This document shows positions 27,801 through 33,800 of a stretch of DNA of 64,000 nucleotides, in pieces. Origin of the DNA: Tomocerus qinae (lineage: Eukaryota; Arthropoda; Collembola; Entomobryomorpha; Tomoceridae); NCBI GenBank assembly GCA_020055645.1, contig CM034548.1:35824201-35888200 (forward strand), written 5' to 3'. The position numbers and the translations under genes are program-made. Each line of letters begins with the position of its first letter. Position 1 is the first letter of the stretch. A model generated the notes under the pieces. That model was not told the origin of the DNA. It made no database searches and worked only from the letters and a program-made list of their open reading frames with translations.

Positions 27801-30800
27801 CCAGTCCCCACACCGCATAGCTATTATTACTTACCTACTACAACCTTCACCAACTAGCTACCTTGTCTTCAGCTCAGTTAGTTAACAACCTATTGTTCTT
27901 TGCCTCTCTCCTAATCTCGTACAGACAAGTACATATTCTTCAGAGATCTCCTCCACTAACTATATATGGCCTCCATTATAAATCTATCTTCCTTTACCAT
28001 TACCCGCCCGCGTCCTCCTCCCGTCCCGCTCACTCAGTCCTAGTCACTTTCTTAATGTGCCCTGGCTTTTCTTCAGCTAAACTTATACATCTTTACCTAA
28101 ACACGTCCCTACTTGATACTTCCCAACATCTTCTGTCTCTTACATTCGTTCGTCTTCACTGCACGCACCGTAAAACTCTCTTTTAGCAACGTCCACCTAT
28201 AAAAATTCAATAAACTCTCTTTTTGCTATATTTTCATCCAATCAACCAGGAAGTTTAGGAAGATTTTTGACATTCTATTAACTATCGTCATGCTACTCCA
28301 TTTTGTCTATGGCAGTTTATTTTCGCTTTTTATTTGATATTTGATGTTGTACTGTTAAAAATATTGATATATTCATTGATATATTGTTATGTTTAGAATA
28401 TTGGATGTTGTAAATCTGTAAGCAACCGTTATCATTTTAAAAAGTAGCATATTACTATTCGTAATGACCAGTCCGTGTCATTAACAATTAGAAATTTACC
28501 TTAAAATTAGAATCAGACTATTTAAATGCCACATTTGTAGATACTCAAATGGTCCTGATGATATAAGGATGGAGGGTATTCCAGAAATATTTATTTTTAA
28601 AAGAAATTCTCCGACTGTCAACACCAAAATGTACAGCTCGAATAACAATAACAATATTTCTAAATTAGGAATCGAACCAAAAAGACAACCGGGCATTTTG
28701 CCAATTTAATCTTGTTTTTACGGTGTGTATGGAGCAGTATTATTTATAAAAGCCTTTTACTCAAATAAAACCCATGGTATGGCTTTACCCAAGCGCTAAA
28801 TCAATCGAATGACTTAATCGGGCATTTCCTAACATTCTACTACCTTTATCAGTGCAAAATGCAATGCAGCACACTAAACTAATCTCATCTTATTTAATCA
28901 CTACCCATTTAGAGGTCACTTGTTTGATGCTTTTGAAAGATGTACTGCGTATTAATTTTAATGCATTTTCTTTTCAGTGACAAGTACACTCGTTTTTGCC
29001 AATGGAAAAACTTGGAACTAAACATACAGGTAATGGTTTAATATTTCAAAATGGTTTGTACAAAGGTATTTGTATGAATTATGAAGATAATATTCAGAAG
29101 CAAAATGTTCCGTTTGGTTGGTGAAGTAGATTTTATGTTGTGGGTATTGTTATCTAGTAGTAGCGTCTAAGATATATATTCATCATAAGAAAAGCAATGA
29201 GGCGCAGCCCAGCAGGACGCATCGTATAAAGCAATAAATAACAAAACAAAACTAACAGGAAAATATAAATGGCCTGCTTGTGCGTCAGAGTTGCAAAAAA
29301 ACAAATCTGTTAATTGACCTTTGTCCTCACCGATATTGTCTTGATCTGTTTTTTGAAAGTGGTCTTTATTATCTTGTGTCAAATACCTTTACAGACTAAG
29401 TATACCTATGCATGTAGCAATATAATCTTTTCCAAATTATTCTACAACATTCTTTGAGGTTCCTTTTTGAAACTTACAAAAGCAAGAAAATTTATTTTCT
29501 TTTGAATGGTTTCTTTACAATTGAGCATTAGAATAGAATCTATAATGATAAGTATACCTTGTAAAACTTTATCTGTGTAGTTATGGCTAAGACGCCAACC
29601 AAGAGTATAATAATAGGTTATGTAATAAGATTAAAAACAAGCCTTAGAAGTTTACAGACTGATTTTTTATTTGTTATGAATTACATAGAAAAGTGGTTCA
29701 CATATACTATTTTGGGAAATACATAAGCCTACTTTAAGTGTAGCTTTCAAGGAGAAACGACGAACGAAAATAAAATCCTGTTGAAAGATACTTAGGGAAT
29801 GACAATTGGAATTAAATGAGAATTGAGGTGGGTAGAAATGAAAGAGCCGGATCAAAGTAGAGAGATTAATAGGAATGATGTTGAATGCCCCGTAATTGAC
29901 AAAATGATTTCCAAATAAGCGAATATTGAGGAGAACGACATTAAAATGATTAGCAAGATCAACATGCATGATTACGAAAGATTACCAGTCAAACGCAAAT
30001 TGGAATCCAGTAGAAAATTATTAGTAATTTCGTACGAGTCGAAAGAATATTTATAATGACTCCAAATTCTAGTATATTAAAAAAGTCTACCTTACTCCTT
30101 ACTGTGCTTACGGCAATCTCAGAAACTTTTTTATGCAAAAGAACTAACAAGAAACCGTAGTTTCATGTCAAAATGTCGTATTCCATAAGGATTTTCTTGA
30201 AAATATTTTCCTTTGTGCAAATCTTTGTAGAGAAAATAATCTTGAAGAATAAATGAGATTGGCATTTGCTAAATGTGAAGAGAAAATTATTATGCTACTA
30301 GTAGAGGTGTAGAATAAATGCATAATGAATATAAAACGAACTGTTTCTAAGTACTATAGAGCATATTTACTTTCTGGCAGAGGTGGGCGCGGCCCGGCCC
30401 GCAGGCCGGGCCGGGCCGGGCCGAAACAGCCGGCCTGCAAATTTTTCGACAAAAGGCCGGCCGAAGGCCGGCCGAAATTTTTAATATTCCTATCCAGGCC
30501 GGCCGAAGGCCGGCCGGTATCTAATGCACTTGATAACAGGCCGGCCGAAGGCCGGCCGGTATTTGATGTACTTGATAACAGGCCGGCCGAAGGCCGGCCG
30601 TATTTTAATGTTAATGGTACCAGGCCGGCCGAAGGCCGGCCGATTTTATCGAAATATTACCAGGCCGGCCGCTTTATCAATGCTGCTCATGTGATTAGTA
30701 TATATATACTCATGTGATCAGTATATATATACTCACGTGATTAGTATACATAATATATACTCACGTGGTTAGTATATATATACTCTCGTGATTAGTATAT

Positions 30801-33800
30801 ATATACGCACGTGGTTAGTATATCTATACGCACGTGGTTAGTATATATATACGCACGTGGTTAGTATATATACTCACGTGGTTAGTATTTATGCTCACGT
30901 GGTTAGTATATATATACAGAGATGGGCAAAAGTAACTAGGAGATTTATACAGTGTCGGTAACCAATCTAACTCCAGTTCGGGATACCGGGAACCATGGCA
31001 ATACTAACACTCCTTGGATTGTATTTTTGGACACTGCTATGCATAAGCCCTATGGCCTAGTTACTTTTGCACATCTCTGTATACTCACGTGGTTAGTATA
31101 TATATATACTCACGTGGTTAGTATATATATATACTCACGTGGTTAGTATATATATATACTCACGTGGTTAGTATATATATATACTCACGTGGTTAGTATA
31201 TATATATACTCACGTGGTTAGTATATATATATACTCACGTGGTTAGTATATATACATACTCACGTGGTTAGTATATATATATATACTCACGTGGTTAGTA
31301 CTCACGTGGTTAGTATATATATACTCACGTGGTTATAGTATATGTATACTCACGTGATTAGTATACATAATATATACTCACGTGATTAGTATACATAATG
31401 TATACTCACGTGGTTAGTATACATAATATATACTCACGTGATTAGTATACATAATATATACTCACGTGATTAGTATACATAATGTATACTCACGTGATTA
31501 GTATACATAATGTATACTCACGTGGTTAGTATACATAATATATACTCACGTGATTAGTATACATAGTATATACTCACGTGATTAGTATACATAATGTATA
31601 CTCACGTGGTTAGTATACATAATATATACTTACGTGGTTAGTATATATAATATATACTCACGTGACTAATGCATATCTAATCACGTGACTTTTTTAGTTC
31701 AATTGTTATTATAATTACTTATCGTAATCAGCATAAACTGTATAAAATGAATCTCAGGCCGGGCCGGGCCGGGCCGGGCCGAAATCGCGCGGCCTGACAT
31801 TAACAACGTATAGGCCGGCCGAAGGCCGGCCGAAATTTTTAAAAAGTACTTGTAGGCCGGCCGGAGGCCGGCCGCGCTGTTGTATACATAGTATCAGGCC
31901 GGCCGAAGGCCGGCCGCTCAGAAATTTTTTTGCTATATGCCGGCCGCAGGCCGGCCGAATTTTTTAAAATTTTTGAATGTACATATTCGGCCCAGGCCGG
32001 GCCGATGAGTGTTCAAAAAAAAATGGCGGCAGGCCGGGCCGGGCCGGGCCGAAAAAATATTTGCCCACCTCTGCTTTCTGGCTGAGTTGATTTGATAGTC
32101 CGTGCTACTTAGTTGTGTAGTAAAGAGCGATGAAGTTGTAGCCGGGAGAGGACAGGGAGAACTGAAGTGTATCTGAATCTGTTGTATACATCTTTAGTTT
32201 GTCGCTGCTGGTGAAAAAAGTCCTAGAAATATTTCCCCTCCCCCCGGTATTTCTCCTTTTGCCCCTTTTTTATAGTGAATTTTAGAACGGAAAGTTTGAG
32301 TCGCAAATTCCCAGGCTTTTCCCACCAGCGTCTAGAAGAGTGAATTACTTGGGATTTACAATTTGACATTTGATTGAAGCATAATGAATGTGTTTGTTTG
32401 TTTCTTGCCCACGCAGTTAACAATGAATGACTTCAGTGTTCACCGAATAATTGGGAGGGGAGGGTTTGGAGAAGTTTACGGATGTCGGAAGGCTGACACA
32501 GGGAAAATGTATGCAATGAAGTGTCTGGATAAGAAAAGGATTAAAATGAAGCAAGGAGAGACTCTAGCATTAAATGAAAGAATTATGCTTTCTCTTGTCA
32601 GCACTGGGGTTTGTGACTTGTCTTATCTTACCTCTCTTTCTTACATATCATTTCTATCTGAGTAATAGCACATTACACACAATAAATCCTTACAAAACAG
32701 TTTTATGAAACATAACATGCATGAATGAGACACAAGCGCTTGTTCAAAACAAAAAGTAGTTTTCCTTTTGTGAACATTTGAAATGGCGAAAACTATATTC
32801 GCCTTTGTAATTCAACTTCTGTGACATCAGTAAATGACGTTTTAAAGCCAATCATAGAAAATTACTGCCGTACTTAACTGAAGTAGTCTGTCATTAATTT
32901 TTTACTTTGAGTTACGATCTGTTGTTCGTTTATGAAAGTTTCCTGTCTGTTTTGTCAAAAAACCACATTACACAACGTCGCATTTATGATGTATTATATA
33001 TTCTGGATATCATTTGTCAGATCTCTCCTATGTTATAAAAGTTCTTTAGTCAAAGCAAAAACTCACCTCTGAGAGCATTATATCTTTTATATCTTTTTAT
33101 ATCTTTTATTGTATATTGGCAGAGATTGAGAGAGATACTAATTTTATATTCATTTCCAAATTGGAAGTCTGAATCCCGTACACAAGTTAAATTCATTCTG
33201 TTCACTTAAAGCCCAATCATGTCAAGCATCACATTACATTCATATTATATGATCTCACTTATACAACAACATCACGTCGTAATAATATAATAATAATAAT
33301 GTTCATGTTTTCTTGCTGTGGATTGTTCTGTGACCGTGTGCTCATTTTGATTATTTTTTTTATTTCGTGGATAAACAGGCTGATTGTCCCTTCATTGTCT
33401 GCATGACTTATGCCTTTCACACAACGGACAAGCTGTGCTTCATCTTAGACCTTATGAATGGCGGTGATCTTCACTACCACTTATCACAGCATGGCGTTTT
33501 CAATGAACAAGATATGCGCTTCTATGCCGCAGAAGTCATTTTAGGTAAACCAATCCACTCCGCCACTCTCGTCCACTCGTCTGGATGTATGGAGGAGGAG
33601 ATTCTGTTGTTGTCTTTGTACTCCACCACCGTTTTGTTTTTTTTCTCAAGTTTACATTTATTATTGCGTTGGGCGATGTAATGTGATGGGATGATTCGTC
33701 GGCAGCGGGTTGTTGGTGTGAGAGAAGAGGACTGAGATGATTACTTTGATTCTTTCCAACATCCGCATCAGCACATTTTAATTTACTCCAGTCTATTCTC

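Follow-up and report, generated by a model that had tools for sequence, protein, structure and literature searches.

The element and its family

The window analysed here is a 64-kb stretch of Tomocerus qinae DNA (C3:35824201-35888200), and the subject of this report is a non-autonomous hAT transposable element of 1,696 bp that occupies window positions 30378-32073. The element is flanked by a perfect 8-bp target site duplication (TSD), CTTTCTGG, and its terminal inverted repeat (TIR) is CAGAGGTGGGC. The inverted match between the two ends stops after exactly 11 bp. Both the duplication and the inverted ends had been reported in the original prediction, and they were found again at the positions listed in Table 1. 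In the window, exact matches to the TIR are restricted to the two ends of the element. When two or fewer mismatches were allowed, 9 matches were obtained against 4.55 expected, which means that the short TIR alone is weak evidence.

The guanine-plus-cytosine (GC) fraction of the element is 0.61 in the left block, 0.31 in the core and 0.59 in the right block. The GC-rich palindromes described earlier at both ends are present as arrays of GGCCGGCC, and the central AT/E-box array with its switch of GC content is also present, in the form of a CACGTG/AT tandem array. It had further been stated that almost every base of the interior is palindromic. This is too strong, because 32% of the element lies in perfect palindromes 8 bp or longer, although this coverage is above that of the controls (50 Markov-1 sequences with a mean of 9% and a maximum of 14%, and 35 tiles from elsewhere in the window with a mean of 4.5% and a maximum of 7.7%). 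Beyond the element, GGCCGG or CCGGCC occurs 3 times in 62,304 window bases. The supposed symmetry of the element did not hold. That is, there is no mirror symmetry beyond the 11-bp TIR, and the GC arrays at both ends run in the same direction: GGCCGAAGGCC was counted 5 times in the left end and 2 times in the right end in the forward orientation and 0 times in reverse, and GGCCGGGCC 3 and 8 times forward and once in reverse, in the left end.

We searched the genome to which the window belongs (334 Mb, 115 contigs) with the DNA of the element and scored the best 40 of 225 candidates. The search gave at least 138 matching pieces, many of which stop at the first or the last base of the element. 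Our family sample consists of 24 loci including the window copy. Both exact TIRs are present in 20 of them, which we call intact copies; the other four (L033, L034, L037 and L039) lack one or both and were excluded from the TSD count. All 20 intact copies end exactly at the TIR and carry a perfect 8-bp duplication, and the duplications are all different. The identity to the window copy was 94-100% in 17 of the other 19 intact copies and 88% and 92% in the remaining two. No substitution was found between the window copy and L016 over 1,661 aligned bases, and L023 and L024 are identical across 1,564 bp with different TSDs. The lengths of the intact copies range from 721 to 2,916 bp, with one of the 20 below 800 bp. 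Two copies, L022 (2,916 bp) and L032 (1,953 bp), are longer than the window copy and contain extra internal DNA.

The sister copy L017 inserted with duplication of its target. It sits inside repeated sequence, and its joined flanks match 20 other places. All 20 of these non-self matches cross the junction, 15 of them being short and 71-75% identical. The five longest are empty sites with a single target copy each, which is ATCCAGAT in four and ATTCAGAT, with one change, in one. The exact ends, the 8-bp duplications, the empty sites and the near-identical copies establish that the family is mobile.

Larger elements of the same genome that share the TIR and the GC array carry a hAT transposase. 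Three of them, BIG1, BIG2 and BIG3 (10,215, 10,251 and 9,616 bp), have the same 11-bp TIR as the window element and are flanked by the perfect duplications ATTTAGAG, ATTTTCAC and TTTATTAC, respectively. Their terminal GC blocks closely match those of the window element, and the GC array is present too. The mutual identity of BIG1-3 is 99.6-99.9% in the left 5.4 kb and 100% in the last 313 bp; they are almost identical and therefore young. A C-terminal transposase piece of BIG3, 304 residues long, contains the hAT dimerisation domain (Dimer_Tnp_hAT, PF05699, E 3.6e-17) and matches the transposase of Hermes, the hAT element of the house fly (E ~1e-12). This piece is 100% identical in BIG1, BIG2 and BIG3. 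The stretches LDMWTD, MADNGANITKA and ATSGDVERLFS resemble by eye the DDE catalytic stretches and are candidates for them. A fourth element, BIG4 (8,486 bp), has the TIR CAGAGCTGGGC, the duplication ATGCCCAA and a transposase piece that is 63% identical and has one stop. Among the best 40 of the 225 candidates, only BIG1-4 are large elements with the ends of the window element. When we searched with the N-terminal piece of BIG3, a C..C...H...H finger was kept in six of seven loci, and the seventh (C1:19M) had no match to the N-terminal piece and no GC array.

The large hAT elements also contain a repeat that is present in high copy number and about 1.16 kb long (L013 about 6676-7833; BIG3 6079-7236). 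It recurs with an identity of about 80-85% at more than 30 further places (best 37 of 4355 candidates scored). Internal arrays of BIG3 with 23-bp and 13-bp units lie at L013 8270-9051 and 9430-9714, and their sequence is unlike the CACGTG array.

When the 20 intact copies and BIG1-4 are taken together, 24 of 24 TSDs differ. It is known that hAT elements prefer targets of the consensus nTnnnnAn, and in these TSDs T at position 2 and A at position 7 were found in 37 of 48 places (binomial tail 5e-10 at p=0.33). Thus, the hAT-like identity given in the original prediction is supported by the TSDs, the target bias and the transposase-bearing partners, and the other copies with the same ends, elements with these ends and a hAT transposase (BIG1-3) and empty sites (those of L017) all exist, as it envisaged.

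The features of the window element are collected in Table 1. Searches against Rfam and for tRNA gave 0 matches each. Window positions 32423-32599, which begin 349 bp downstream of the end of the element, form a coding stretch for a GRK2/GRK3-like receptor kinase (PDB, E ~1e-34). The site of the element is probably an intron.

Table 1. Features of the window element (positions in the window; intact copies and BIG1-4 as described in the text)
Feature	Position	Strand	Remark
Left target site duplication CTTTCTGG	30370..30377	.	sequence read
Left TIR CAGAGGTGGGC, 11 bp	30378..30388	+	identical in 20/20 intact copies and in BIG1-3
Left terminal GC block, GGCCGGGCC repeats	30389..30423	+	near-identical to BIG1
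Left subterminal GGCCGGCC palindrome array, 42-bp (11+31) phase, proposed transposase binding sites	30455..30670	+	phase common to BIG1, BIG4 (small deviations) and the CAGAGATCGGC subfamily
CACGTG/AT tandem array, left part, unit ~23 bp	30686..30916	+	core word private to the family
Nested 163-bp element CAGAGATGGGC...CATCTCTG, TA either side	30917..31079	+	in 14/20 intact copies
CACGTG/AT tandem array, right part, 25-bp then 28-bp units	31080..31665	+	
GGCCG 5-bp repeat block, inner edge of right GC region	31757..31781	+	
Right subterminal GGCCGGCC array, 42-bp phase, oriented as left array	31813..31956	+	
Right terminal GGCCGGGCC block	32032..32051	+	
Right TIR	32063..32073	-	11-bp inverted match
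Right target site duplication CTTTCTGG	32074..32081	.	sequence read

Palindrome arrays and the CACGTG/AT core

The spacing of GGCCGGCC in the window element mostly alternates between 11 and 31 bp, which gives a phase of 42 bp. The same phase was found in BIG1, in BIG4 (with small deviations) and in a subfamily with the TIR CAGAGATCGGC. Between the window element and BIG1, the GC units are better preserved than the spacers, with identity at 150 of 158 unit positions and 83 of 152 spacer positions in the left end and at 135 of 161 and 101 of 159 in the right end; the units anchor this alignment. Compared with the window copy, L019 is missing one whole 42-bp GC unit. A genome scan with the array pattern, in which the gap was left free between 20 and 26, gave 65 forward and 65 reverse matches (the first 100 places are listed), and the control gave 0. 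In viral contigs, the array pattern had 0 matches; another search of viral contigs gave 28 pattern stretches and no transposase relative.

From the 52 transposase matches, we inspected 14 loci for the presence of the array. The array was present at all nine loci whose transposase identity was 47-100%, and at none of the five with 36-38%. The sequence read at these five spans 6-9 kb without a located element end, and an array farther out is possible there. The nine array-bearing loci group together in an unrooted tree with a support of 1.000. That is, the GGCCGGCC array follows one transposase clade. By analogy with other hAT elements, the array most likely serves as a platform for transposase binding.

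All 386 genomic occurrences of the core word CACGTGRTTAGTATAYATA are within the 24 family loci. The count of CACGTG[AG]T is 20-30 in 16 of the 20 intact copies and 10-18 in the other four. The length differences between close copies include 25, 48, 75, 42, 28, 10 and 15 bp, and these copies differ by 0-3 substitutions, which indicates that the arrays change largely by units.

The subfamily with the TIR CAGAGATCGGC is a second non-autonomous family (L071-L075) of 1.2-1.3 kb, which has the same 42-bp GC arrays and a plain AT-rich core. Matching ends together with identical 8-mers were obtained in four of five fetched copies; the script accepted only identical 8-mers by matching ends, and these four TSDs were thus found by construction. 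The CACGTG count was 0 in all four copies of this family that were examined. Since these sister elements have the same GC arrays without CACGTG, the E-box core is not required by the design, and the CACGTG/AT core is probably filler. A role of the core in host regulation is possible, and the older copies give a mixed picture. In L035, CACGTG is kept in 47 of 47 matched units while the neighbouring position varies, and the final G is lost in 10 of 30 matched units of L036 and in 3 of 8 of L038.

Classification and proposed mode of movement

The family of the window element belongs to the hAT superfamily. The TIRs of hAT elements are short and begin with CA[GA]. In the present family, we found the 8-bp TSD in 20 of 20 small copies and in four of four of BIG1-4, the TIR CAGAGGTGGGC, the target bias and, in the partner, the dimerisation domain. 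Three other classes were considered and rejected. Miniature inverted-repeat transposable elements are usually below about 800 bp, and the window element with its 1,696 bp is too long for this class. A foldback element, which would have long inverted arms at its ends, was rejected because the TIR is 11 bp and the GC arrays are direct, and a free satellite because 386 of 386 core words are inside family copies.

Among the known systems, maize Ac/Ds is alike in its 11-bp TIR, its 8-bp duplication and its repeated short terminal sites, and also in that the non-autonomous members carry unrelated filler between their ends. The subterminal repeats of Ac, in the terminal 200 bp, are reported to bind the transposase (PMC3260210). 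The repeats of Ac are AAACGG hexamers, whereas the window element has paired GGCCGGCC palindromes in a 42-bp phase and CACGTG tandem filler. Hermes is alike in that the BIG3 transposase is homologous to its transposase over the C-terminal piece. The BED domains of Hermes are reported to bind subterminal repeats, cooperatively at a quasi-palindrome, and exact phasing is called crucial (PMC10368747). The site bound in Hermes is AAGT next to AT-rich sequence, and its arrangement differs between the two ends (PMC10368747), in contrast to the GC palindromes at both ends here. Pfam gives no BED match for the present transposase. Tetris, a foldback element of Drosophila virilis, is likewise a DNA transposon that is non-autonomous and contains tandem repeats; its 220-bp repeats are inside the terminal inverted repeats, and it has seeded satellites elsewhere (PMC4079207). 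Unlike Tetris, the present family has an 11-bp TIR, direct GC arrays and a core word confined to its own copies. The original prediction had called the internal design unrecognised, and term searches of the open-access literature do not contradict it: among the entries listed, no title or opening of an abstract describes such an internal or end design, which is weak evidence of absence. The kind of element is known (hAT), and the phased palindrome architecture of the ends is an unusual variant that extends over the clade.

We consider it very probable that the window element is a young, recently active non-autonomous ("passenger") copy of a cut-and-paste hAT transposon, which is moved by a transposase of the hAT clade with the palindromes as sites and with a dispensable core. 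The movement may proceed as follows. The transposase of BIG1-3, or a close relative of it, would act on the window element in trans. A BED-like finger in the N-terminal part would bind the GGCCGGCC palindromes, and the spacing of 42 bp, about four helical turns, would put the sites on one face of the helix, where several transposase units could dock. Because a palindromic unit reads alike from either side, arrays of the same direction can serve both inverted ends. The CACGTG/AT core would be unneeded for movement; it may hold the ends apart and, as a tandem array, grow and shrink by whole units.

Several points weigh against this explanation. Between the window element and BIG1-3, the overall similarity of the ends is only about 76%, and the exact partner may therefore be another copy. 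Pfam recognised no BED domain in the N-terminal piece with E values of up to 10 allowed, the middle transposase piece had 0 matches among solved structures, and the transposase reading is divided among several pieces. No TSD pair was detected by script at four additional transposase loci. The comparison of L017 with the window copy gave gaps of 1, 2, 2, 2, 5 and 23 bp and 6 substitutions, that is, not all whole units, and L030 has two 2-bp gaps. The conservation of the palindrome units may be partly apparent, because gain and loss of units homogenises them and because they anchor the alignment with BIG1.

It could be considered that the mover was another hAT transposase of the same clade, present in another copy or lost, and that BIG1-3 are mere cousins. 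The similarity of about 76% at the ends speaks for this, while 17 of the 19 remaining intact copies match the window copy at 94-100% identity, and BIG4 and the CAGAGATCGGC subfamily indicate that the clade holds several lineages. However, the 11-bp TIR is identical to that of BIG1-3 and the terminal GC units are nearly so, BIG1-3 are near-identical to each other and hence young, and BIG1-4 were the only large elements with these ends among the candidates scored. We regard a different mover as rather unlikely.

The idea that the GC palindromes are not binding sites, but a tandem repeat kept uniform by slippage and gene conversion, agrees with the loss of a whole unit in L019, which indicates unit-wise change in the GC arrays as well. 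We think it improbable, since the palindromes persist while the spacers diverge between lineages, three lineages retain the phase, and autonomous and non-autonomous members alike carry the arrays at their two ends, as would be expected of required sites.

With the same low probability, the CACGTG array may be functional. That is, basic helix-loop-helix (bHLH) factors of the host would bind the E-boxes and open the chromatin or alter nearby transcription, which would aid the spread of the element. The CACGTG[AG]T counts of the intact copies, the conservation of CACGTG in L035 and the location of the window copy before the GRK2-like coding stretch are in favor of such a function. On the other hand, the final G is gone from some units of L036 and L038, sister elements with the same ends moved without any CACGTG, the internal arrays of BIG3 differ, and unit-wise gain and loss can explain the uniformity without selection. 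A chance arrangement or a non-transposon satellite, suggested by the tandem array of the interior, is refuted by the 20 of 20 exact ends with different 8-bp duplications, the empty sites and the transposase-bearing partner.

If the palindromes are transposase sites of a mobile hAT family, as we favor, a more specific proposal can be made, to which we give somewhat less than an even chance. A hAT clade may have replaced scattered binding repeats with a phased platform, in which pairs of GGCCGGCC recur at 42-bp intervals, with one direction shared by the two ends, and several transposase dimers would sit on one face of the helix. Such a phased platform would be a transpososome architecture unlike the asymmetric one of Hermes. 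To our knowledge, the choice and pairing of hAT ends via subterminal repeats has been detailed for few elements. This one genome contains young elements with a transposase, two families of non-autonomous elements and a number of diverged lineages in which the same palindrome phase is kept, and these natural variants make binding, phase and orientation testable. The core array also shows how much unrelated tandem DNA a pair of hAT ends can carry, and how fast its length can change relative to substitution.

A nested element in the core

The core contains a nested inverted-repeat element with its own ends, CAGAGATGGGC...CATCTCTG, which was absent from the original prediction (Table 1). This insertion is present in 14 of the 20 intact copies with a length of 162-164 bp, and TA was found on either side of it in 13 of these 14. 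When a looser pattern was used, only 6 nested copies were TA-flanked on both sides, and the end placement can shift with the allowed errors. From the similar-looking ends CAGAGATGGGC, a second hAT element was considered and rejected on account of the TA flanks. TA on both sides makes a TA-duplicating type likelier than hAT for the nested element.

Of the six intact copies without the insertion, L028 and L030 resemble internal deletions of an L027-like copy, and the absence of the insertion is thus not always the ancestral state. Eight further copies of the nested element, with CAGAGATGGGCAAAAGTAACT ends and lengths of 150-186 bp, were read elsewhere in the genome (L040-L043 and L045-L048); a ninth, L044, had no end pair and was left out. 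Five of the 8 are flanked by TA on both sides.

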